The translations under genes and the position numbers were made by a program. The notes beneath the pieces are model-generated. The model saw only the letters and a list, made by a program, of their open reading frames with translations, was not told the DNA's origin and searched no databases. From the NCBI GenBank assembly GCA_025963715.1, contig JAOQAG010000001.1, positions 62,001 through 126,000 of the forward strand: a stretch of 64,000 nt of DNA, written 5' to 3'. The DNA is from Bacteroidota bacterium (GTDB taxonomy: Bacteria > Bacteroidota > Bacteroidia > 2-12-FULL-35-15). Positions 12,776-60,672 of this stretch are shown piece by piece; position 1 is the stretch's first letter; each line of letters opens with the position of its first letter.

Positions 12776-13300
12776 TCAAAATTTCCCCATAAGCTGCATT
12801 TGCCTTCTAATACGAATAAACGGGAAGCGCTTGCTCCAGTAATATTTCCTCTTTTTAGTTGTCATAAAAGGCTTATCCGGATTAGGTTTTGTTGTCATAA
12901 ATTTTCCATCATGTTCCACTGTAGGAATAAATACGGCGTCTTGGCCACTGGAATTTTTTCCTGTATAAACCTGTTCTGTTGGATGAATGATGGATGCTGC
13001 ACGCGACGGTTTTGAGAAGAGCGAAACGGCAATGGTGGAAATAAAAAGAAATGCTTTCCGGTGAGCGGAAATTGTAATGGGTTTGATCAGGGACAGATCA
13101 ATTTGTTCCGCTGCAAAACGTCCGCACAAATCGGTTTTACCGGCAGTTAACGCCTGAAATTCTTTGCGGGATCTGGTTGTAAAGTCAATTACTTCTTTAT
13201 TACATACATCGCAATAACGGCCACAGGCAGTAACTTTCATCGCTTCCCAATCCTGGTTGCAATTAAATTTTAGCCGGATGTTATTTTTTTCCGTTTTCAA
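12776..13300 (-). CDS. Cys-motif membrane protein, paralogue 2
   Basis: A 174-residue protein of unknown function and a paralogue of the gene directly upstream. The N-terminal part has the pattern CNQDWEAM then CGRYCDVCNKEVIDFTTRSR and a later CGRF: four conserved Cys that could bind metal. This module also occurs at the N-terminus of some Bacteroidota proteins with carboxypeptidase-regulatory-like domains. One hydrophobic segment follows (near residue 95), then a polar, basic tail. The start is TTG 13300, with a GGAG ribosome-binding site a few bases upstream. It lies 16 bases behind its paralogue, so the two form an operon. Confidence 0.7.
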   Translation of the reverse strand: MKTEKNNIRLKFNCNQDWEAMKVTACGRYCDVCNKEVIDFTTRSRKEFQALTAGKTDLCGRFAAEQIDLSLIKPITISAHRKAFLFISTIAVSLFSKPSRAASIIHPTEQVYTGKNSSGQDAVFIPTVEHDGKFMTTKPNPDKPFMTTKKRKYYWSKRFPFIRIRRQMQLMGKF

Positions 13301-13316
13301 ATTTTCTCCAATTTTA

Positions 13317-13832
13317 TTAAAAAGAAGGACAACCCATCGTAGTTATCCTGTGATTGCGGTAAACGACTATAAAAGGAAAACGCTTTGACCAATAATACCT
13401 GCGTTTTTTTGTTCTGATGAAAGGCTGATGATCCGCAGAAGATGGAGTTTCAGGAGTTAATATTTCTTCGGATGGTTGTGAAACCGCAGGTTTTACCGGG
13501 TTGATCACCGTTTCCGTTTTTTTAGTATCGCTTTGTGCATATAAAGGTTTGGAAATAATAGTGATCATTACTGTAGAAATAAAAAGGAACGCCCTTCTGT
13601 GAAAAGTCGGGGATATGGGCCGGATTAGTGATGGATCAAGCTGTTCCGGCTTAAATCGTCCGCAGATATCGGCTGTATGTGTGATCAATGAGTTGAATTC
13701 ACTCCGGGATTTAGTTGTAAAATCAATCACTTCCTTATTGCAAACATTACAAAACCGTCCGCAGGAAGTTGCTTTCATCGCGTTCCAATCCTGGTTGCAT
13801 TCAAATTTTAGTTGTATCGGTTTTTTGCTCAC
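13317..13832 (-). CDS. Cys-motif membrane protein, paralogue 1
   Basis: A 171-residue protein paralogous to its downstream neighbour, with the same layout: CNQDWNAMKATSCGRFCNVC, KEVIDFTTKSR, CGRFKPEQLDPSL, a hydrophobic segment (RRAFLFISTVMITIISKP), then a Thr/Pro-rich region and a basic tail ending in KRRYYWSKRFPFI-like residues shared by both. The CxxC-like Cys cluster suggests a small metal-binding or redox domain facing the cytoplasm ahead of a membrane anchor. The start is GTG 13832. Function unknown. Confidence 0.7.
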   Translation of the reverse strand: MSKKPIQLKFECNQDWNAMKATSCGRFCNVCNKEVIDFTTKSRSEFNSLITHTADICGRFKPEQLDPSLIRPISPTFHRRAFLFISTVMITIISKPLYAQSDTKKTETVINPVKPAVSQPSEEILTPETPSSADHQPFIRTKKRRYYWSKRFPFIVVYRNHRITTMGCPSF

Positions 13833-49910: not shown

Positions 49911-50131
49911 TTAATTTTAAATGAGTATCCGGAACTTTGTACCATAAAAAGAATTTACTTTAAGAACGTCATTGCGAGGGCTTTTCGCCCGAAGCAATCT
50001 CATTCTGGTTTTGTACTCTGGTGTGAGATTGCTTCGGGCGAAAAGCCCTCGCAATGACGCGTTGATTAAAACTTTTTCCAATAAAATAGCTATAGCTTGG
50101 TATAAACTTTCCGATAGTCATTTAATTTTAA
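49911..50131. mobile_element. MITE-like element, long version with a hairpin insert
   Basis: Terminal inverted repeats of about 34 bases (49911-49944 and 50096-50131; cores TATCCGGAACTTTGTACCA and TGGTATAAACTTTCCGATA) flank about 150 bases. Inside are two perfect 36-base inverted arms (49967-50002 and 50024-50059, starting CGTCATTGCGAGGGC). The shorter relative at 12598-12724 keeps only a piece of one arm. The left end begins four bases before the deacetylase start and the right end overlaps the stop codon of the 1172-residue gene. Confidence 0.65.
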
Positions 50132-53100
50132 CTTTGTTTATACGTATTCAAAAACCTGGCGATCAATCCGATTGCGCTGATGGCAGAACCTCCTAAAAGC
50201 AGAACCTGGTTGAAGCTTTCCTGGCTCAGGTACATAAAGATAACGATCCCGCTTATCGCGATGATCATTAACGGCAGCTTCCATTTTGAATAAAGCGCTT
50301 CTGATGTTTCTTCTTTTTCTTTTATCGCTTTAGCGCTTTCAGGTACATTGTCATCCAGGTAAACTATAAAATTTCTATACCCGTAATTCATTACTCTTAA
50401 TCTTCCGGTAAGCGGATCGGCAATGATCTGTCCTTTTTTCATAATCCCAATAACCACATTCCTGTTTTTATAATTTACAAATGTGTCGGTTGCAAAATCG
50501 CTCATCACAAATTTTTCCTCCTCTGTTAATTCATCCCAAAGTTCAAGATATTGATCCCTGTATGTTTCAAAATGGTTCATCATGATCAATTCCATTTTTA
50601 CTTTATTGGAAACAATATTATTCTTAATTCCTTTTAACCAGACTTTGGAATCTGATTTTTCTATATCATCCAATGATCCGGTAATTTCAGTATTCGGCTT
50701 TTCCGTTCTTTCGAGTTCCTGAAGGTCGTGTTCCGAATAGGGCGGCATAATCAGTGATGTATTGGTAAATTCAGCCGCTAATTTGTCGGGTTTAAAGTAC
50801 CCTAACCGGTATGCTTCAGAAAGTTCATAAAAGAAAAAGCGGCCTGAATAATAATTAATGAGATTGCAGATCAGTAAAACGGTAATAACCAAACTCAGCA
50901 ATAACATGAAAATAGAATAAGTGGTTGAATTTGTGGCAATAAAATCATTATAGATCTTAAAATCATACATATTGTGTTTAAAATAATCAAACCTGGTTTC
51001 TTCCAAATATTTTTTTGAAGGAGGAGCCACGGGTAACAAGCTGCTCATGTTCCCGTCTTTCTTCAGAAAATACTGCTGTTGCGGAGGATCGCTTTTTGTA
51101 GCAAGCTCTTCTTTTTTAAAGTAAGAATTATTAAGATCTTTTACCGTATTTACTTCCGAAAGAAATAAATAAGAAATGATCAGCATTGGCACTAATATAT
51201 AATGATAGGAAATAACGCTTAAAAAATAAGAGATAAATGCCGGTCTGCAGCTTTTAGCACTGGTAACAGCATTTTTTGGAAGGGCAATTTTTTTAGTGTC
51301 TTTTTTTAATGCATACAGAATAAGAAAATGGCCTGCAAAAGACAGGCTCAATCCAAAGCTTGGCAGGTGATGCATGTAGAGCATCCATGGAAATAAGTAT
51401 GAAAAGCTTGCGATAGTTATTACCAGTAATATGCTGTAACGCCTCCTGTTTTTAGTTAAAGCAGTATTCTTTTCTGATTTTTTGAACAAAAATACACGTT
51501 GATTCAACAAAACAAAATTCAGGAATGCCAGATTTATCCCGCTTAAAATAGAGAGGTATAACACATGCTTGTATCCGGTAATGCACAATACCAGGAATGT
51601 TATAAATAAGCCGTAATTAATGCACATTAATACGATATATTCTTTTCTCCTGCTATTGTCGGGATACAGCCAAAATAAATGGTAGCGCGAAAAAACAGAA
51701 ACATCTCCCATAAAAAAGAAAATGGAATAGAGGAGCACCAGGAGCATGATCGCCAGTACATAACCCACACTTAAAATAAATCCGTTTATGATGGTGTAAA
51801 TCTGTAAGCTGTTTGTGAATCCCTGCTTTTTATAGCTGAGTAAATAAAGAGGATAATCGTTAAGGTTTGCCTGGAATACATGATTTTTTTTGCTTGTGTC
51901 TACTACCGTTGACCGAATGTTGCTTGTGTAATTTTTTGCATAGAAGAGGCAGGGATCACCATTGTAATTAAATTCGAACGTGGTATCTTTCATATTATGC
52001 AGCATTTGCGAAAGATCATAATTGTTATTACTGTTTGCATAAATATCTTCATGCAGACTTTTGTCGATGTCGCTGTTCAGGATCACCCGACCGGTATTGT
52101 TGCACAATATGTAGCCGTTATTTACATTGTGTTTGAATTCGTCTGTAAATTCGGGTTTGAACGCAAATCCGGTCAGGTAAAAATCAACAGTGTCTGTTTT
52201 TTTTGTTAGTGTATTTGTAACAGTGATGGGATTTTTTTGTACAAAAACAAATTTCAGCTGGTTGTCATATTTTGAAAAAACAGCAGTGATCATTTTACTG
52301 TATCCTTTGTCTTTTAGCACTTGAAAATAATCACGCTCTTTGAAATTCATCCGGATGTTAAAATCATTTTCCCTGCTGATGTCTTTTATAAGTTCCCCTT
52401 TTGAATTGATTGTGAAAAAATTCTGGAGATTATTTATGTTTTTTGTATTTAGCAGATCTGCGATGGCAGGGCGTTTATAAAACGACTCTATGTTATAGTG
52501 AACAGGCAAAGCAGAATCAGGGGTTAATTCCTTTTTTACAATGTTAAATACATTAAAATAAGGTTCAAATTCCTTATCCAATTTAGTTTGCACCTGTTTG
52601 TTCAGCGTCATTAAATTAGCCGTAGAAATACGCTGGTAATTGTCGGATAAAAATATAGTAAACGAAAAACTCACCAATACCAATGCAAGCACGCCAATTG
52701 CACTTGTGGTATTCAACAGGTCAAATTGGGTCAATCGTTCTTTCTTGCTGCTGATAAGCGGTTTGATCATTGGGATGGTCAATAAAAGCAAGATCACCAT
52801 TAAAGCAGTAATAAGAATCCGGTTCAGATCCACCCTTTTAGATTGCTGATCAAAATTTGCCTGGCTGATAGCTCCCACCAGGATATACACATTATTGGTT
52901 GCATCAACGGTAACCGATTGCCTGTAAAAACGTTTGTCGGAAAATTTGAAAAGTAAAATTCCGGATTTGGAAGTCTTTGATCTAACACTGTCCAGCTCTT
53001 CTTTTTCAATAGATTGATTTATTAATATTCTCCTGCTGGAATCGCCCGAATAAATGGCCCAGTTTTTAAAAGCAATTGCACCGCTTAATCTTGTTTTTAA

Positions 53101-53646
53101 TTCCCCGATATTAACGCAGGCAGTATCAGTTATTGAGCAGAACCTGGCTAATATTTTGGAGTCCTTAGCATTAAGATCATCCTTGCTGATATTGCTGAGC
53201 TGTAAGTTTATTTTTTTATGTATAATGAGCTCCGAACCGGTTGTGGTAACAGATTCAATTTGTACGGATTGAATAATTCCGTTCTTAATGATATCGGTCA
53301 ACTCGGGAGAATTTCTACACGAGTCTGATTGTAATTTATGTAAAAGTTTTAACAGCGTGCTGTCTTTGTCACACTTCTTGTCGCAAAACGGATAAAGCTG
53401 TCCTGCTTTTTTTACAAGCGAATCTTTCAGGTTATCAATATCCACCTGGTTTGCAAAGTCCTTTAAAATATTATTGAACTGAAGATTAAATTCCTGTAAT
53501 GTGCTTTTATTATAAGCATCCTCTTTATCCACATTTGCAGGAACAATAAACGCCATGTACAATCCCACAAGTAAAAAAACAATGATGGAAGTAACAATTG
53601 CGGGAGTATTTTCCTGCGAAGCTTTTTTCAGATCAGATATTTTCAT
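50128..53646 (-). CDS. 1172-residue multi-pass membrane protein with cache-like sensor
   Basis: A large membrane protein I do not recognise as a named family. Membrane spans: about 17-36, then a periplasmic domain to ~280, spans at ~280-298 and ~318-338, a long second extracytoplasmic part (~340-620, with FFTINSKGELIKDISRENDF, FKERDYFQVLKDKGYSKMI and YILCNNTGRVILNSDIDKS, the pattern of a dCACHE sensor), and at least seven further spans (~640-960) before a cytoplasmic tail of ~160 residues ending in two spans. No kinase, cyclase or HAMP domain is seen. It is the last gene of the eight-gene operon starting at 60672. The stop codon lies inside an inverted repeat, so the C-terminus could have been altered by that element. 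Confidence 0.7.
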   Translation of the reverse strand: MKISDLKKASQENTPAIVTSIIVFLLVGLYMAFIVPANVDKEDAYNKSTLQEFNLQFNNILKDFANQVDIDNLKDSLVKKAGQLYPFCDKKCDKDSTLLKLLHKLQSDSCRNSPELTDIIKNGIIQSVQIESVTTTGSELIIHKKINLQLSNISKDDLNAKDSKILARFCSITDTACVNIGELKTRLSGAIAFKNWAIYSGDSSRRILINQSIEKEELDSVRSKTSKSGILLFKFSDKRFYRQSVTVDATNNVYILVGAISQANFDQQSKRVDLNRILITALMVILLLLTIPMIKPLISSKKERLTQFDLLNTTSAIGVLALVLVSFSFTIFLSDNYQRISTANLMTLNKQVQTKLDKEFEPYFNVFNIVKKELTPDSALPVHYNIESFYKRPAIADLLNTKNINNLQNFFTINSKGELIKDISRENDFNIRMNFKERDYFQVLKDKGYSKMITAVFSKYDNQLKFVFVQKNPITVTNTLTKKTDTVDFYLTGFAFKPEFTDEFKHNVNNGYILCNNTGRVILNSDIDKSLHEDIYANSNNNYDLSQMLHNMKDTTFEFNYNGDPCLFYAKNYTSNIRSTVVDTSKKNHVFQANLNDYPLYLLSYKKQGFTNSLQIYTIINGFILSVGYVLAIMLLVLLYSIFFFMGDVSVFSRYHLFWLYPDNSRRKEYIVLMCINYGLFITFLVLCITGYKHVLYLSILSGINLAFLNFVLLNQRVFLFKKSEKNTALTKNRRRYSILLVITIASFSYLFPWMLYMHHLPSFGLSLSFAGHFLILYALKKDTKKIALPKNAVTSAKSCRPAFISYFLSVISYHYILVPMLIISYLFLSEVNTVKDLNNSYFKKEELATKSDPPQQQYFLKKDGNMSSLLPVAPPSKKYLEETRFDYFKHNMYDFKIYNDFIATNSTTYSIFMLLLSLVITVLLICNLINYYSGRFFFYELSEAYRLGYFKPDKLAAEFTNTSLIMPPYSEHDLQELERTEKPNTEITGSLDDIEKSDSKVWLKGIKNNIVSNKVKMELIMMNHFETYRDQYLELWDELTEEEKFVMSDFATDTFVNYKNRNVVIGIMKKGQIIADPLTGRLRVMNYGYRNFIVYLDDNVPESAKAIKEKEETSEALYSKWKLPLMIIAISGIVIFMYLSQESFNQVLLLGGSAISAIGLIARFLNTYKQS

Positions 53647-53675
53647 TTGAAAATTTAATTACAGTTTATGCTAAA

Positions 53676-54884
53676 TCAGGGAAAATCAAGGCTAAACGCG
53701 ATCCTGTTCAATGATTTTTCTATCATCACTTCAACTAAATGTGTTTTTCCGGGCTCCAGGAAATTAATCCCATCCTTTACGTTAATAAGGTCAATCGTAT
53801 TTGAATTTTTATAAGTCGCATTCCTGATAATGTTTTCTTCGATCCGGAATCCAAACTGCGTAATTTGTGAAAGGTCTGTATATTTTAAATAAAAGCAATC
53901 GATCTCATTGTTCTCATAACGGTGAACAATTTCTATCATATTCTGCTCTTCTTTTTTTCCAAAATAAAAACGGGTAATAAAATCTTCTACCGGATTTCCC
54001 AACTGATCAACAACGCGGATATTGAGCATCGAAAATGGTGGATATGCAGTAGCCGGGGATACAGGAAGCGGATTATTATTAAGGATATTTAAAATGGTTT
54101 TAAATACCGGATCTGCAGCATCCTTAATGGCGCCTAAAATTCCGTGCTTGTTTCCAAAATGGTTTCTATCAGGGAATACAGTGACAGGGATCTGGCTTAT
54201 TTCCTTTACCGGGTTGGACGCTATCGTTTCATTTATTCCCAGTTTTACGCCTTTCATGTTTAAGTTGGCAGCGCAAAACCTGACTGTATTATCAGAGCCT
54301 TCTTCCTCAAATCCGGGAATATCCACATGAAAAAAATTATCAATCTTTTCAAAAAGACCGGGAAAATCAATGTCATTTAAAGTGCCTTGTAAATGATGCA
54401 GGCGTAATCCCGGAAAAGCTGCATGCAGATCAGCGTTCATCCATTCCCAGTTAAGATCCCATGTATACAGGGAACCAAGCTCTAATGCATAAAGTATTTT
54501 ATTTCCCCAGTCCCAGGGCAGTTTTTTTCCATATCCAGCCAGCCTGGAACCATTATTTGCCGGTGCAGCCATAATGAAATTACTTACCGGGGAAGCCGCT
54601 TTGTTTTTATAATAAAGCGTAAGCCATTTGCGGATGATCAACGCTCCTGTGCTGTGGATCACAACATTAAACGGCTGCACAATATTATTTATGGGATCAT
54701 GCACTGCATCTTCCATCGCAATGGCATAATCATCAACAGATAGCTGATCATCGCCGGAAGTATACCTGCCAAGGTGCAATTCCGTAATCGTATAACCTGC
54801 GGCCTGCAACAGATCCGGCGCGCTGCCATAGCTGGTTTTATCACCCGACCAGCCGTGAATAAATACTACATGTTGTTTTGACAT
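53676..54884 (-). CDS. Alpha/beta hydrolase (lipase-like), cytosolic
   Basis: A 402-residue protein. The N-terminal alpha/beta-hydrolase domain has the oxyanion segment VVFIHGWSGD (residues 6-15) and nucleophile S78 in IHSTGAL (an elbow with Ile-His in place of Gly); candidate catalytic His is in PDRNHFGNKHG. The C-terminal ~120 residues form a beta-rich part (LNIRVVDQLGNPVEDFITRF). No signal peptide is present. It fits a lipase/esterase acting inside the cell or at the inner leaflet. It is in the protease operon, between the barrel-like gene (23 bases upstream) and the large membrane gene (29 bases downstream). Confidence 0.78.
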   Translation of the reverse strand: MSKQHVVFIHGWSGDKTSYGSAPDLLQAAGYTITELHLGRYTSGDDQLSVDDYAIAMEDAVHDPINNIVQPFNVVIHSTGALIIRKWLTLYYKNKAASPVSNFIMAAPANNGSRLAGYGKKLPWDWGNKILYALELGSLYTWDLNWEWMNADLHAAFPGLRLHHLQGTLNDIDFPGLFEKIDNFFHVDIPGFEEEGSDNTVRFCAANLNMKGVKLGINETIASNPVKEISQIPVTVFPDRNHFGNKHGILGAIKDAADPVFKTILNILNNNPLPVSPATAYPPFSMLNIRVVDQLGNPVEDFITRFYFGKKEEQNMIEIVHRYENNEIDCFYLKYTDLSQITQFGFRIEENIIRNATYKNSNTIDLINVKDGINFLEPGKTHLVEVMIEKSLNRIAFSLDFP

Positions 54885-54907
54885 ATCAGTTTTTTATGTA
54901 AAATAGG

Positions 54908-56950
54908 TTACTTTAAATGGTGTGTTTTCCTGTTCACGCTGGATCCAAGGTGAGCAAGCGGAATGTCGATAGTGGCGGAAACATACCATCTCCAAACCGG
55001 GTTGTCGGTTAATGTTAATTGATTGGATTCCACTTTTAACAGGTTAGGTCCGTATTGCCAGCCGCCGGAAATCGTTAGTGGAATATTCCAGGGCAATCCG
55101 TAGGCAAGTGAAATGCCCGGCGACAGGATGTTTTCGAGGTGAATGGTTTGATCAATGGAAGTACTGTCGTGGCTGATGCGGTAATCCACAATGGCACCAA
55201 TATCAATAATGGAAGCAAAAACAGAGATGGAACCGAACGAATGCAAGCCCCTGTTAAAGGCAAGTCCAACCGGTGCTGTAATTCCCTGGTTGATGGTAAA
55301 AAGTCCGTCGGTGCTTTTTCTCGGCGCTCCGTAATAATAACCAACAAACGCATTCAGGTCGATGCTCCAGTCCGCATGTTTTTTTGTCCGCGAGCTTCCT
55401 GCCGGTAATGCCGATGCTTCGATCACGCTTTCTATTTCTTCCGGGCTTTGCGCTTTCGCGATGCCGGAAATAAAATTTCCGAAGGTTAAAAATTTCTCAA
55501 TAAAGTTCGGAAGATTGCTCACATTTTCTTTTTGCTCTTTTAAATTTTTCAAGGTAGCAACATCTGCAGGAGCTGGCGCTGTTCCTTTTTTCATTGTTGC
55601 CTCGATCTTACTTATTTCTGCATTAATGCTTGCTTTCACATTTTTAAAATCCGGATCGTTGGTCACATCTTTCAACAATGCATACAATGAAAATACAGCC
55701 GATGAATAATCTTTTGTGTACGCATACCGGTAGATCTCAATTCCTTTGGATGTGTAATCCATGTATTTATCATCGATGCAGCCCGGATTTATTTTGTTGG
55801 CGATCGAAACGCCATACGTTGCGATCTCTACCGTTTTGGTCAGGTAACTGTAAATAACATCATTGTTTACATCGGCTTTGCTGTTACCAATATCTTTCGC
55901 CAGCTGTTTTGTTTGTTCGCTCAGCGAAACAAAATCATCCAGCACTTTTTTTATCAGCATGTTGCCGGTGGAATCAATAAATCCTTTTAACAGAACGGTC
56001 TTTCCGCCAACAACACTAAACCGGATGTCGGCTACCTCTGCTTGTGCACGGATCAAACCGAGATACAATTTAAATCCGTCCTGGTCGCGGTACAATGTAT
56101 TTAATTGCTGGTAAGAGATCCATTCCATTCCCGTTTCGTCCACCAGGCTATTGGAGATCAGGTTAAGCGTTTGAAAACTGCTACCCAGGTTTGGGTTCAT
56201 TTCGCTCCATTCGGTATACGTTGTAAAATCATTTACAAATGCAACCGGATTTTTTGACGGATCTGTATTTGCCAATGTGTGTGCGGTTTTTAGCACAACA
56301 CCCAACTCCGGGTATTTTTTATTCAGCTCTGCATATTTCGGACTTTCCAATAATTTATAGGCGTTGTTCGGAATTCCTTTCAGATCTTCATCAAATGATT
56401 TGCGGATGGTCTGGATCAATTCGGCATATCGCGTGATCTCAATTTTCCCTAACACATTGCTTGTTTTCGGAAATAAAATAGTTGCTTCCGGATTTGCTGC
56501 AATAAAATTCTGCAGCTTTGAAAAGAACGCTACATCCAGCTCTTCCTTTCCACGCTTAATTAAAAAGCGGGCAAGTGCATCGGTAAAATTGGTTACATCT
56601 GCATTTCCAAGAGCGGATACGCCCATGGAAAATGCACTGCTGATCGCATGCGTAGTATTTGATACCACACCGCCGCCGGTTAAGTATGGGCCAATGTAGG
56701 GATTGTAATCCGGACGGTTTGCATCGCTCAGGTCGTTGAGCAGATCTTCCTCCGTTGCAAATTTATTGTTGTAATATTTATTAATGATCTGGCAATATTC
56801 AGATACTTGTTTTTTTTCCGTAACAAACTTTGTGGGATGGGCCGGATCAATGTATTTTTTCAGCTGGAGCGCATCCAGGTAAGCAGATTGCGGAAATGCG
56901 CTTGCGCAGATGAAGAAAAATAAAATAACGAGGATGTAGGTTTTTTTCAT
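54908..56950 (-). CDS. Exported barrel-like protein of the protease operon, unknown
   Basis: A 680-residue protein with a signal peptide (MKKTYILVILFFFICASAFP). Its first ~500 residues are helical and polar (a coiled-coil stretch near 430-480, KKGTAPAPADVATLKNLKEQ). The last ~150 residues alternate hydrophobic and polar residues (WSIDLNAFVGYYYGAPRKS, SFGSISVFASIIDIGAIVDY), as in a small outer-membrane barrel. No named family recognised. The gap to the upstream subtilase gene is two bases, so it is co-translated. It is the only gene of the operon with an export signal, so it may be the surface or outer-membrane arm of the system. Confidence 0.7.
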   Translation of the reverse strand: MKKTYILVILFFFICASAFPQSAYLDALQLKKYIDPAHPTKFVTEKKQVSEYCQIINKYYNNKFATEEDLLNDLSDANRPDYNPYIGPYLTGGGVVSNTTHAISSAFSMGVSALGNADVTNFTDALARFLIKRGKEELDVAFFSKLQNFIAANPEATILFPKTSNVLGKIEITRYAELIQTIRKSFDEDLKGIPNNAYKLLESPKYAELNKKYPELGVVLKTAHTLANTDPSKNPVAFVNDFTTYTEWSEMNPNLGSSFQTLNLISNSLVDETGMEWISYQQLNTLYRDQDGFKLYLGLIRAQAEVADIRFSVVGGKTVLLKGFIDSTGNMLIKKVLDDFVSLSEQTKQLAKDIGNSKADVNNDVIYSYLTKTVEIATYGVSIANKINPGCIDDKYMDYTSKGIEIYRYAYTKDYSSAVFSLYALLKDVTNDPDFKNVKASINAEISKIEATMKKGTAPAPADVATLKNLKEQKENVSNLPNFIEKFLTFGNFISGIAKAQSPEEIESVIEASALPAGSSRTKKHADWSIDLNAFVGYYYGAPRKSTDGLFTINQGITAPVGLAFNRGLHSFGSISVFASIIDIGAIVDYRISHDSTSIDQTIHLENILSPGISLAYGLPWNIPLTISGGWQYGPNLLKVESNQLTLTDNPVWRWYVSATIDIPLAHLGSSVNRKTHHLK

Positions 56951-56952
56951 TT

Positions 56953-57819
56953 TTAAATTGTTTTAAGTGTGTCAATAAATTTTTGAGGTGCAACAATGCC
57001 ATGTCCATATTCATTCACTGAAGAATTAACGGCATCGGCGGTTTGATAAAGTATTTTTTTAATTAATTCAGGATCCTCGTTCATGCGTGCTTTTATATAA
57101 CTTAATCCCAGTGCGCAAATCCCGGATATATATGCGGCCGACATGCTGGTACCGCTCATGGCTACACTATCCTGCGTGTTCGCAGATGAAAGAATATCTT
57201 CGCCGGGCGCCATCACATCCATGTTAATTGTTTTTGTTGAAAACACAGAGCGCACACGGGTTTGCCCCACGCTACCCACACAAATACAAGCGCTAACCGA
57301 AGCCGGTGAATTGTTCCAGTCTTCATTCCGGTCGCCGCTTGCCGAAACCAAAATGCATTTTTTATCTGTTGCAATTTTTGTTAACAGCACTTCGATCTCT
57401 TTGATCTTGGGCTGTTCGTCAATGGAACCAACCATTACAAAGCTCATACTTAAAATATCAACCTGCCCGGCATTGTTTGTTTCGTTGTAAATATCATCCA
57501 GCGCACTTTTTAATGCATCGAAGTTTACTTTACCGGCAGCGTCACATACTTTTGCGATGAACAGGTTTGCGTCCGGTGCCATGCCCTGGTTCTTGGTTCC
57601 GTTTGCATTGATAATGCCAGTACAATGCGTCCCGTGGCCGTTTTCATCGGTCGTAAAATCGGCCGACTTATTAATATAATCGTAGCCTTGTATTTTTGAA
57701 AAATCAAAATCCACATGGCGGTTGATGCCCGTATCGAGCACCGCTACACGTACATTCTCGCCTTTTGTTGTGTTCCAAACTTCCTCCAGGTTATATCCTG
57801 TGATCCACCAGCCTGCCAT
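56953..57819 (-). CDS. Subtilisin-like (S8) serine protease without signal or propeptide
   Basis: A 288-residue minimal subtilase with a complete triad: D29 in AVLDTGINRH, H62 in NGHGTHCTGI, S225 in SGTSMSAAYI; the oxyanion Asn is in SASGDRNEDWNNS-like segment. It begins directly with the catalytic domain (MAGWWITGYNLEEVW); no signal peptide, I9-type propeptide or C-terminal extension is present. It is therefore predicted to be cytosolic and active or held by a partner. It is in an operon with a papain-like protease, SH3-like protein and membrane proteins. Proteases without propeptides in operons with sensors are known from bacterial conflict systems, which makes the context notable. Confidence 0.85.
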   Translation of the reverse strand: MAGWWITGYNLEEVWNTTKGENVRVAVLDTGINRHVDFDFSKIQGYDYINKSADFTTDENGHGTHCTGIINANGTKNQGMAPDANLFIAKVCDAAGKVNFDALKSALDDIYNETNNAGQVDILSMSFVMVGSIDEQPKIKEIEVLLTKIATDKKCILVSASGDRNEDWNNSPASVSACICVGSVGQTRVRSVFSTKTINMDVMAPGEDILSSANTQDSVAMSGTSMSAAYISGICALGLSYIKARMNEDPELIKKILYQTADAVNSSVNEYGHGIVAPQKFIDTLKTI

Positions 57820-57838
57820 CGTTTTTTTAATTATTTAT

Positions 57839-58078
57839 TTATTTATTTGTTTCCTTTACCGGCTGCGCTACGCCGCCACTCCAGAACCAGGTTCCTTTTT
57901 TTGTAAAATACCATTTGCTGTTTCCGTCTATCGGTTCTCCCTCTTCGGTATAACCGTAATACGTTAGCTCGGTTCCTGCTTCCACAACAGCAATGGGCGG
58001 CTCCACACGTTTTGCATCACTGCGGATGTTGAGCCGCTTTGCAGCGATTATTTTACCTGTGCTGTTGATCTTTAGCAT
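57839..58078 (-). CDS. Small bacterial SH3-like protein
   Basis: A 79-residue soluble protein with one SH3b-type fold: RLNIRSDAKRVEPPIAVVEA, then GTELTYYGYTEEGEPIDGNS and KWYFTKKGTWFWSGG, the pattern of an SH3_3/bacterial SH3 domain. Such domains bind peptides or glycan and often tether proteases or hydrolases to targets. It has no signal peptide. It is between the subtilase (19 bases downstream) and the 227-residue membrane protein gene (16 bases upstream), so it could be a scaffold or inhibitor of the operon's proteases. Confidence 0.75.
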   Translation of the reverse strand: MLKINSTGKIIAAKRLNIRSDAKRVEPPIAVVEAGTELTYYGYTEEGEPIDGNSKWYFTKKGTWFWSGGVAQPVKETNK

Positions 58079-58094
58079 TGCAATACTATAAAAA

Positions 58095-58778
58095 TTAACC
58101 TACAGCAGGAGCGGGCGGATTAACCGGTGGCGCTGCTGGCGGAGGGGTGCTTTTATTTTCCGTTGTTTTAAATGCTGCGTATGTTCCCGAGCTGATTCCC
58201 AGTAATACTAATGTATTCGAATCAAAATCAGGAATGATCCCATCGATCAGTGTTTTGATACCATCTGTTATTGTACTGCAGGAATTAACTCCTAATTTTG
58301 AAATAGCAGCATCAAAACAATCCAGGTTTTTCCATAGTTTTATGAAAAACCAAACCGAGAAGATCAGGTTGAAAAGCACCGTTTGTAAGCGCGAAATGCT
58401 CACGCCGTTATTGTCGGAAAGAATGTCCAGAAAAATATTTTCTTTTTCCTGATCCTGGATCCGCGGAAGCTGTCCCGACTGATCCGAAGAATCAATGAGG
58501 CGCGCTGCTACGGAAGTTCCCGTGCTGATCCCCAGCACGATCAAAGCACCGTTGCTGAATGTAGGAACAAAAGCTGCAGCGTTGTTTTTATCGAAGATCA
58601 CTGCTGCAAAAGCGCTCATGATAAATCCCATCCACCAGGCCATTTGTACTTTTGAAAAGCTGTACGGCTTTTTCGACGCGTTGCTGGTATCGCGCAGCAG
58701 CTGAAATTTTAAATCAAGAAAAACGATGAGGCAGAAATAAACTGCCATCGAAATTAAAAGGACTGTTTGTGCTTTCAT
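58095..58778 (-). CDS. Membrane protein with an internal duplication
   Basis: A 227-residue protein with about five membrane spans and a Pro-rich C-terminal tail (STPPPAAPPVNPPAPAVG). It consists of two related halves: YSFSKVQMAWWMGFIMSAF then ALIVLGISTGTSVAARLID in the first, and VSISRLQTVLFNLIFSVWF then TLVLLGISSGTYAAFKTTE in the second. Each half is a membrane helix followed by a GIS(T/S)GT membrane-proximal motif. Family unknown. It lies in the middle of the protease operon and may be the membrane anchor for the SH3-like or protease partners (the Pro tail is a plausible SH3 ligand, inference only). Confidence 0.75.
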   Translation of the reverse strand: MKAQTVLLISMAVYFCLIVFLDLKFQLLRDTSNASKKPYSFSKVQMAWWMGFIMSAFAAVIFDKNNAAAFVPTFSNGALIVLGISTGTSVAARLIDSSDQSGQLPRIQDQEKENIFLDILSDNNGVSISRLQTVLFNLIFSVWFFIKLWKNLDCFDAAISKLGVNSCSTITDGIKTLIDGIIPDFDSNTLVLLGISSGTYAAFKTTENKSTPPPAAPPVNPPAPAVG

Positions 58779-58802
58779 AATGTTTGGATTTTAGTGAAAT
58801 TT

Positions 58803-59606
58803 TTATTTTTTTGTTACTTCTACCATGCGGATCGTCCAGAAATCTTCGGAAAGATTGGGATCCGTCAGGTATGCATACGGCATTGTAAAATATCCTTGTT
58901 GTCCCCAATCGGTATCCCAGCTATTGCGGATCAAAAAGCGTTTGGTGGCATCGTCGTAACCAACGCAGAGTACAGCATGTCCGCCTTTAATATATTCATT
59001 GGGTTTCGGCATTTCCAGGATGCCGGTTTTGGTAATGGCAGCTCCTTCAAATTCTTTATAAACGGTAAACCCGAAAACAAAGGGAAATCCTTCTGCAAGG
59101 CAGGCTTTCATCAACTCCGGTTTTTTTTCTATCCGGTGATAGCTTATTACCTGGTGTTTCAGCGCTTCTTTGTAACAATCATCACCGGGCTTCTTTTTAA
59201 ATTTTGTTTTTCCTTCGCTGTAGCTCCACATGTCTTCCGGACAAACGCCCAGTTTGTTCACGCTTTTTATACCGTTGCGGATCTCCGCGCCATTATCAAT
59301 TGCAACCGTGTTTTCAATCGTACGTTCGTTGTAATAAATAAATAAGCGCGAGGGCATAAAATCATATTGTTTTCCCTGCTTGCGCAAGCCAAATTGGATC
59401 GCAGCCGCAATTGCATTACCGGTGCAGCTTCCAAGCTGTCCCTGGTTGTATATTGGCGGGCAATCTTTACGCAGGTCTACCGATTTCGGAAGTTGTTTTT
59501 GCGTTTTTTTCGGTTTGTAAATTAAATCGCGGTGATCGGGAAGATCCGGTTTCCAGCCATACCAGGAGGAATCGTACGTGTTGAGAGTTTGTTTTTTTGT
59601 TGCCAT
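58803..59606 (-). CDS. Papain-like (C1) cysteine protease without signal peptide
   Basis: I start at ATG 59606 (MATKKQTLNTYDSSWYGWKP), 267 residues; a longer reading frame exists but is unsupported. It is a C1A fold with Q55 and C61 in NQGQLGSCTGNA, H210 in GGHAVLCVGYD and N228 in RNSWDTDWGQQGY: a complete active site. The N-terminal ~45 residues include a DLPDHRDLIY segment known in many bacterial C1 proteases. No signal peptide is visible. It is second in the operon, 24 bases before the gene for the duplicated membrane protein. Two proteases of different classes in one operon is unusual. Confidence 0.88.
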   Translation of the reverse strand: MATKKQTLNTYDSSWYGWKPDLPDHRDLIYKPKKTQKQLPKSVDLRKDCPPIYNQGQLGSCTGNAIAAAIQFGLRKQGKQYDFMPSRLFIYYNERTIENTVAIDNGAEIRNGIKSVNKLGVCPEDMWSYSEGKTKFKKKPGDDCYKEALKHQVISYHRIEKKPELMKACLAEGFPFVFGFTVYKEFEGAAITKTGILEMPKPNEYIKGGHAVLCVGYDDATKRFLIRNSWDTDWGQQGYFTMPYAYLTDPNLSEDFWTIRMVEVTKK

Positions 59607-59658
59607 AACATTATTGGTTCGGAGAGTTTTTAATTTGTATACCAAAAAAATTTACATT

Positions 59659-60672
59659 TTATTTATGTGTTTCCGGCATCTTGTGTATTTCCGGCATCGG
59701 CGCTTCTTTTTTCTTTTCGATCCGGATCGTGTAAAACGCTTTGTGTTTTGTTAATGAAGTAAAATCCAGGGTTACTTTATATTGATTGTCTTTTGTGAAA
59801 ATAGGTTTTGCATCGCCTTTTGTTTGCGTTGTTTCTACGATCAGCTCTTCGCCTTTTTTCAACTCAAATTTGACTTTTTCATTTGCAAGGTCGATCTCAT
59901 TTACATACACCGCAAAACCTTCAATGGCCTGGCTGAACCAGCCCGGACCGGTAAAGCGGTCTTCTTCGTAGATCACATCAAAATTTGCAGGATCGGAGGA
60001 AACAGGTATATCGAGGTTGGTAATATTTTCCAGTTTGTCTTTCGCAACAGCGATGGCTTCGCTCTTGCGTGTAGCCAGTACTTTTTGCTGCGTCTGCAGC
60101 TGACTGATCTGGATGGCGATCTTTGCTTTATCAACGTTGGAAATATTTGAATCGGCCACATGCGATAATGAATCCTGTTTTAATGTAAGCAAACGGATCT
60201 GGTTATCAGCCACATTCACATTGTTGATCGCATTATCGATCCTTGATTGATAGAGGTTCCGGAGGTTTACAAAACCGCTTTTCAAACTGTCTTCAATGAT
60301 CGTGTAGCTTAAAAATTCGCACATCGCGTGTACACGGTTGTACTTCAACGAATCTTTCTCCATCAGGTCCATGAACTTGTTCATGTAGGGAGCAATGGTT
60401 TCCGAATCCTGCTTGCGGGTTTGCAGTTTCAGCTCGTAATCCTTGAAAATAAAGGTAGTGTAGGCGGTAAAGCCGCCGATGATAATGGTGCCGAAAAAAT
60501 ATTTTAAAAATTCAAAACGGGCAGCGGCTACTTTTTCCCTGCCTGCCACTTTTGCATCCACTGTTTTTTGTTCTTCAGCAAGCCATTCTTTCCGGTAATC
60601 TTCATATTGTTTGAAAAGCTCTGCGTCTTTTTGTTCGCAGGCTATTTTTTTGTACTCATCAAAGCTGATCAT
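59659..60672 (-). CDS. Membrane-anchored coiled-coil protein opening the protease operon
   Basis: I choose ATG 60672 (MISFDEYKKIACEQKDAELF); the longer frame begins with ten extra residues. The 337-residue protein has a charged N-terminal cytoplasmic helix, one membrane span (FLKYFFGTIIIGGFTAYTTFIF, about 54-75), a long coiled coil (about 80-230) and a C-terminal beta-sandwich-like domain (FAVYVNEIDLANEKVKF to FYTIRIEKKK). Family unknown. As the first gene after the 29-bp motif, it could be the sensor or scaffold of the operon. Confidence 0.72.
   Translation of the reverse strand: MISFDEYKKIACEQKDAELFKQYEDYRKEWLAEEQKTVDAKVAGREKVAAARFEFLKYFFGTIIIGGFTAYTTFIFKDYELKLQTRKQDSETIAPYMNKFMDLMEKDSLKYNRVHAMCEFLSYTIIEDSLKSGFVNLRNLYQSRIDNAINNVNVADNQIRLLTLKQDSLSHVADSNISNVDKAKIAIQISQLQTQQKVLATRKSEAIAVAKDKLENITNLDIPVSSDPANFDVIYEEDRFTGPGWFSQAIEGFAVYVNEIDLANEKVKFELKKGEELIVETTQTKGDAKPIFTKDNQYKVTLDFTSLTKHKAFYTIRIEKKKEAPMPEIHKMPETHK

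Follow-up and report, generated by a model that had tools for sequence, protein, structure and literature searches.

An apparently unnamed modular cassette of hydrolases paired with envelope and sensor proteins in Bacteroidota

Organization of the eight-gene locus

We analyzed a 64,000-nucleotide stretch of contig JAOQAG010000001.1 from a Bacteroidota bacterium (the window; genome G000, contig C5 in our locus numbering, where L and G labels denote compared loci and genomes). It carries eight co-directed genes, g1 to g8, on the minus strand from position 60672 down to 50128, and all eight open reading frames (ORFs) are present where the initial annotation of this DNA had placed them. The close spacing described there also stands, with the range of gaps corrected from 2-52 to 2-49 bases (49, 24, 16, 19, 2, 23, and 29 bases when recomputed with ATG starts). 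The single promoter that had been proposed could not be shown, with scans for sigma-70-like and Bacteroidota-like motifs not exceeding shuffled sequences; the genes probably form an operon because they are closely spaced and gene pairs are conserved in other genomes. The complete eight-gene set was seen once only among the genomes searched, and sub-sets of it co-occur strongly, so that the co-occurrence expected of the whole set holds for its parts. These parts belong to a modular, apparently unnamed cassette that occurs patchily across Bacteroidota and joins envelope and sensor proteins to proteases, lipases, and cell-wall hydrolases that can replace one another.

Hydrolases of the operon

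The g2 gene (58803..59609, minus strand; ATG start at 59609) encodes a papain-type (C1) cysteine protease of the xylellain type, with catalytic motifs present and a Pfam C1 match at 2.8e-17. Its closest solved structure is 3ois (E=1.3e-73), which we take to be xylellain, and its homologs lie in the cassettes of G318 and of Bacteroidales L094 and G402. The g5 gene (56953..57819, minus strand) encodes an S8 subtilase (Pfam 4.9e-35) with the triad D29/H62/S225, which is 42% identical to proteins of L089 and L071; comparison with solved structures placed it among intracellular and other subtilisins. The protein encoded by g7 (53676..54884, minus strand), previously described as an alpha/beta hydrolase, could be narrowed to a PlaB-like phospholipase with an HSTG nucleophile motif. 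It is homologous to the Legionella phospholipase A PlaB (6zth, E=4.2e-30) over residues 6-268, leaving its C-terminal part uncovered; unlike PlaB, g7 has proteases and a sensor as operon partners. Catalytic motifs were found for the C1 and S8 proteases and for the lipase nucleophile. Inspection and hydropathy revealed no signal peptides in the hydrolases, which would therefore work either in the cytoplasm or, by another route, at the envelope or in a target cell.

Exported barrel protein and Cache receptor

The g6 gene (54908..56950, minus strand) encodes an exported protein, termed BARREL, with a helical N-domain and a short C-terminal beta-barrel at approximately residues 528-671. In its AlphaFold model (predicted local distance difference test score, 75.7), the barrel was weakly matched to OmpA, Ail, and OmpW by Foldseek and VIA-align, and neither program found a confident fold match for the helical domain. 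The BARREL alignment comprises 24 sequences, including that of the window. The family also lives outside cassettes: solitary relatives with housekeeping neighbours, mostly longer (~650-1120 amino acids), were observed at L153-L155, L157, and L161-L165, and another solitary BARREL gene in genome G332 (L160:8769-12799) is divergent from a gene for a caspase-like protein of 635 amino acids.

The product of g8 (50128..53646, minus strand), termed BIG, is predicted to be an inner-membrane receptor with several transmembrane helices. The Cache domain named in the initial annotation was confirmed and refined to a periplasmic double Cache: the extracytoplasmic part matched the dCache fold in Foldseek (3lif, TMt 0.64; also McpH, TlpA, and PctA; probability 1.0). 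At its C-terminus, the AlphaFold model has a helix-turn-helix-like domain and two more membrane helices, and the C-terminal part is common to a family of membrane proteins of 1100-1580 residues. Many BIG relatives carry a P-loop nucleoside triphosphatase (NTPase) domain, the motif having been seen in several; it is absent from g8 and its closest relatives, including those in G305 and G049. A scan of the genome contigs with g8 alone gave no match.

A conserved triplet and a shared SH3-like module

Neighbours of the BIG relatives revealed ADAPT, a family of ~400 amino acids with three membrane helices, first seen adjoining patatin, caspase, papain, M19, and amidohydrolase genes. Scanning for ADAPT gave 189 loci with a relative, of which 80 were kept and their neighbours clustered, with gene calls in the relatives made mechanically. 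The triplet ADAPT > SH3-protease > BARREL was intact in 22 distinct loci, a count that takes once each of the duplicate genomes in the neighbourhood sets (L034/L096, L033/L099, and L016/L069). Of the window proteins, g5 groups with the protease cluster and g6 with the BARREL cluster, and g4 (57839..58078, minus strand), a free-standing SH3-like module, matches the module at the N-terminus of the clustered proteases. The SH3-protease is split in the window into two genes, with g5 corresponding to the catalytic portion of the usual SH3-S8 protein, and g4-g5-g6 presents module, protease, and BARREL in cassette order. The S8 triad is intact in 21 of 24 protease members, the other three being of the S1 type. 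Neither ADAPT nor BARREL has a match in Pfam, NCBIfam, or PADLOC.

When the SH3-like module by itself was used as a search model, it was located N-terminally in subtilases, trypsin-like proteases, DUF900 hydrolases, and GH46 proteins, C-terminally in Amidase_2 proteins, and as a separate protein in g4; it thus occurs on five catalytic types (S8, S1, alpha/beta hydrolase of the lipase kind, GH46, and Amidase_2). Among 125 non-core genes that adjoin ADAPT or lie in related cassettes, the commonest Pfam families were patatin, peptidoglycan-binding, CHAP, Amidase_2, papain, Tle1-like lipase, M15, M19, phage lysozyme, and NS endonuclease; these counts are descriptive, as a few members were chosen as known hydrolases. 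Pairs of ADAPT and hydrolase genes were found on plasmids of Hymenobacter, Caballeronia, and Rhizobium as well. The initial proposal of a hydrolase-effector cassette with membrane and sensor partners is supported by this recurrence of its parts in other genomes. Separately, a proteobacterial ADAPT gene in Duganella (L143:9968-15898) lies near a gene for a large membrane protein resembling a KAP P-loop NTPase.

The enzyme families overlap those of type VI effectors (Tle1-like, patatin, amidase, lysozyme, and NS endonuclease), which raises an offensive role: the hydrolases would be toxins delivered to competing or predatory organisms, by contractile injection for example, with the membrane and barrel proteins aiding loading or release. 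Such export would agree with the lack of signal peptides, and this explanation keeps some weight because the window genome holds an apparent extracellular contractile injection system (eCIS) locus. That locus (L180 and L181; G000:C2, ~104-131 kb) has two tandem sheath genes and tube-like, spike-like, and large baseplate-like genes, the assignments beyond the sheath match having been made by reading of the genes; a TssC search had no match anywhere, controls included. However, the cassette and the eCIS locus are on different contigs, no immunity gene was identified, and payloads do not typically come in fixed combination with integral membrane proteins and an exported barrel protein. We therefore regard a weapon as unlikely, though a contender to be taken seriously.

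The g1 gene (59659..60672, minus strand; ATG start at 60672) sits in the first-gene position that ADAPT holds in related cassettes and encodes a coiled-coil protein with a beta-rich C-terminal region and one possible membrane helix. The earlier description as a membrane coiled-coil is only partly borne out: no transmembrane helix exceeded the hydropathy cut-off, and only residues ~53-75 form a moderately hydrophobic stretch. We found no match for g1 above the Pfam cut-off, none in NCBIfam, PADLOC, or PDB, and no homolog among 295 Bacteroidia genomes, leaving it an orphan; identity with CC32 or ADAPT was rejected, as neither showed significant similarity. The g3 gene (58095..58778, minus strand) encodes a small multi-pass membrane protein by hydropathy, with phmmer relatives at 1e-65 to 3e-43 in L094, L073, and L076. 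Relatives elsewhere adjoin amidase genes, and in L094 a lysozyme gene too. A g3-like membrane protein gene also occurs on a conjugative plasmid of Rhizobium ruizarguesonis (L172) amid M23, DUF2272, and M15 genes, with many hypothetical neighbours.

Distribution and replacement at the site

Across 395 Bacteroidia genomes, BARREL was detected in 22, ADAPT in 35, and both in 13, compared with 1.9 expected (p=6e-10, phylogeny ignored), and the pairs are adjacent by coordinates in at least nine genomes. At the same site, between the same flanking genes, the congener G305 carries another cassette composed of ADAPT, SH3-trypsin, BARREL, and BIG; window and G305 share 80-84% identity in the flank proteins, 43% in BIG, and 34% in BARREL. 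The site is empty in the congeners G308 and G299, where the flanks lie ~2.5 kb apart. The congener G318 has papain (the g2 homolog), lysozyme, patatin, and BIG genes at another place, the last two interrupted; these two consist of two ORFs each (L033:7198-12520), suggesting decay or phase-variable frameshifts. A prophage was considered and rejected, since neither g3 nor ADAPT had phage matches and the phage relatives of g2 and g5 were at most 49% identical.

This pattern bears on two further explanations. If the proteases, lipase, and Cache sensor served envelope quality control or turnover by clearing damaged envelope components, solitary BARREL and BIG proteins with housekeeping neighbours would be unsurprising, as would a Cache domain, which in known receptors binds small metabolites. 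A housekeeping role is nevertheless improbable because of patchiness and enzyme swapping: each core family occurs in only roughly 3-9% of the sampled Bacteroidia genomes, congeners have empty sites, and chemically unrelated enzymes interchange. Patchy distribution and same-site replacement would equally suit a dedicated anti-phage abortive infection system, and the patatin, caspase, and trypsin-like relatives resemble known defence effectors. However, cell-wall hydrolases would be unusual in such a role, ADAPT was absent from the phage collection searched, and PADLOC families were not enriched around the relatives (8 families in 144 flank proteins versus 40 in 139 control proteins; small samples with non-random controls). 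Phage defence lost weight because of this missing enrichment, and the phage-specific role raised initially is not supported on the same count, with only bare catalytic domains matching PADLOC; we consider such a function rather improbable too.

Elsewhere in the window (12776-13832), two adjacent paralogues resemble each other in an N-terminal motif that contains cysteine (RFCNVCNKEVIDFTT / RYCDVCNKEVIDFTT).

Comparison with known systems

No published description of the gene set was found in the open-access literature. In agreement with the initial failure to name a system of this composition, Pfam, NCBIfam, PHROGs, and PADLOC contain none covering the set and together identify only the g2 papain protease, the g5 subtilase, and, weakly, the g7 alpha/beta hydrolase. 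PADLOC applied to the eight proteins matched only its subtilase and IetS models, apart from a chance-level Cas4d match to g8 (0.01). The similarity to IetAS is limited to a weak match of g5 to IetS (2.3e-7) through the generic subtilase domain, and no IetA AAA ATPase was matched in the operon. The enzyme repertoire is like that of type VI and contractile injection effectors, but the cassette lies outside an injection locus and its enzymes are accompanied by membrane proteins and a sensor.

The closest concept is that of the NTP-dependent conflict systems, comprising ternary, VMAP, and iSTAND systems (Kaur et al., 2020; PMC7159879), in which a constant core is combined with interchangeable peptidases and other hydrolases. 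In those systems a small domain is shared by many effectors, as with EAD1, reported in fusions with both lysozyme and papain-like domains (Kaur et al., 2020), and the SH3-like module is shared in the same manner here. In contrast, their MoxR/vWA and GTPase cores had no Pfam match in the eight proteins, and a VMAP core is absent as well; the core here consists of ADAPT, BARREL, and a Cache receptor, and the word 'Cache' is absent from that paper. Since the defining cores are lacking, we place the cassette beside these systems and in no named one.

Proposed function

At the level of sequence and structure prediction, the modular cassette, its catalytic motifs, the exported barrel protein, and the double-Cache receptor are established. 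The operon is likely a variant of polymorphic conflict cassettes that sense from the envelope, and the cassette has the look of a device for self-destruction or conflict, for which we infer both trigger and target. We assign a probability of roughly 45% to the full reading, that of an envelope-anchored polymorphic hydrolase cassette whose enzymes, on a signal, kill or lyse the cell that makes them in a conflict-related or altruistic response. This reading is favoured because the triplet is intact in 22 loci with conserved S8 triads, the SH3-like module serves five catalytic types, and hydrolases dominate the ADAPT neighbours, including the pairs on plasmids; it draws equally on the co-occurrence of ADAPT and BARREL, same-site replacement and empty sites, the double-Cache sensor, and the PlaB-like lipase. 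In such a device, the SH3-like module would dock the enzymes onto the membrane protein, and the periplasmic barrel protein and Cache receptor would monitor the envelope. A danger or ligand signal could then release or activate the g5 protease, the g2 papain, and the g7 phospholipase, and these enzymes would break down proteins and membrane and so kill or lyse their own cell.

Several observations weigh against self-destruction. ADAPT was not found in the window genome and no relation between it and g1 could be detected; g8 is without the NTPase that a STAND switch would be expected to have; BARREL and BIG each also occur solo next to housekeeping genes; known defence genes are not enriched near the relatives; and no immunity or inhibitor gene was identified. 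More tentatively, cassettes of this kind could represent an undescribed class of envelope-spanning tripwire, formed by an exported barrel protein, an inner-membrane anchor, and a double-Cache (sometimes NTPase) receptor, into which various cytosolic proteases, lipases, or cell-wall hydrolases plug via the SH3-like module.

If the self-destruct reading is true, modular devices for killing or lysis would form an apparently unnamed family that is widespread in Bacteroidota, with related pairs on plasmids of Proteobacteria, and metabolite-type Cache sensors would be tied to cytosolic destructive enzymes. ADAPT and BARREL, two families without a database model, could help to find hundreds more such loci.
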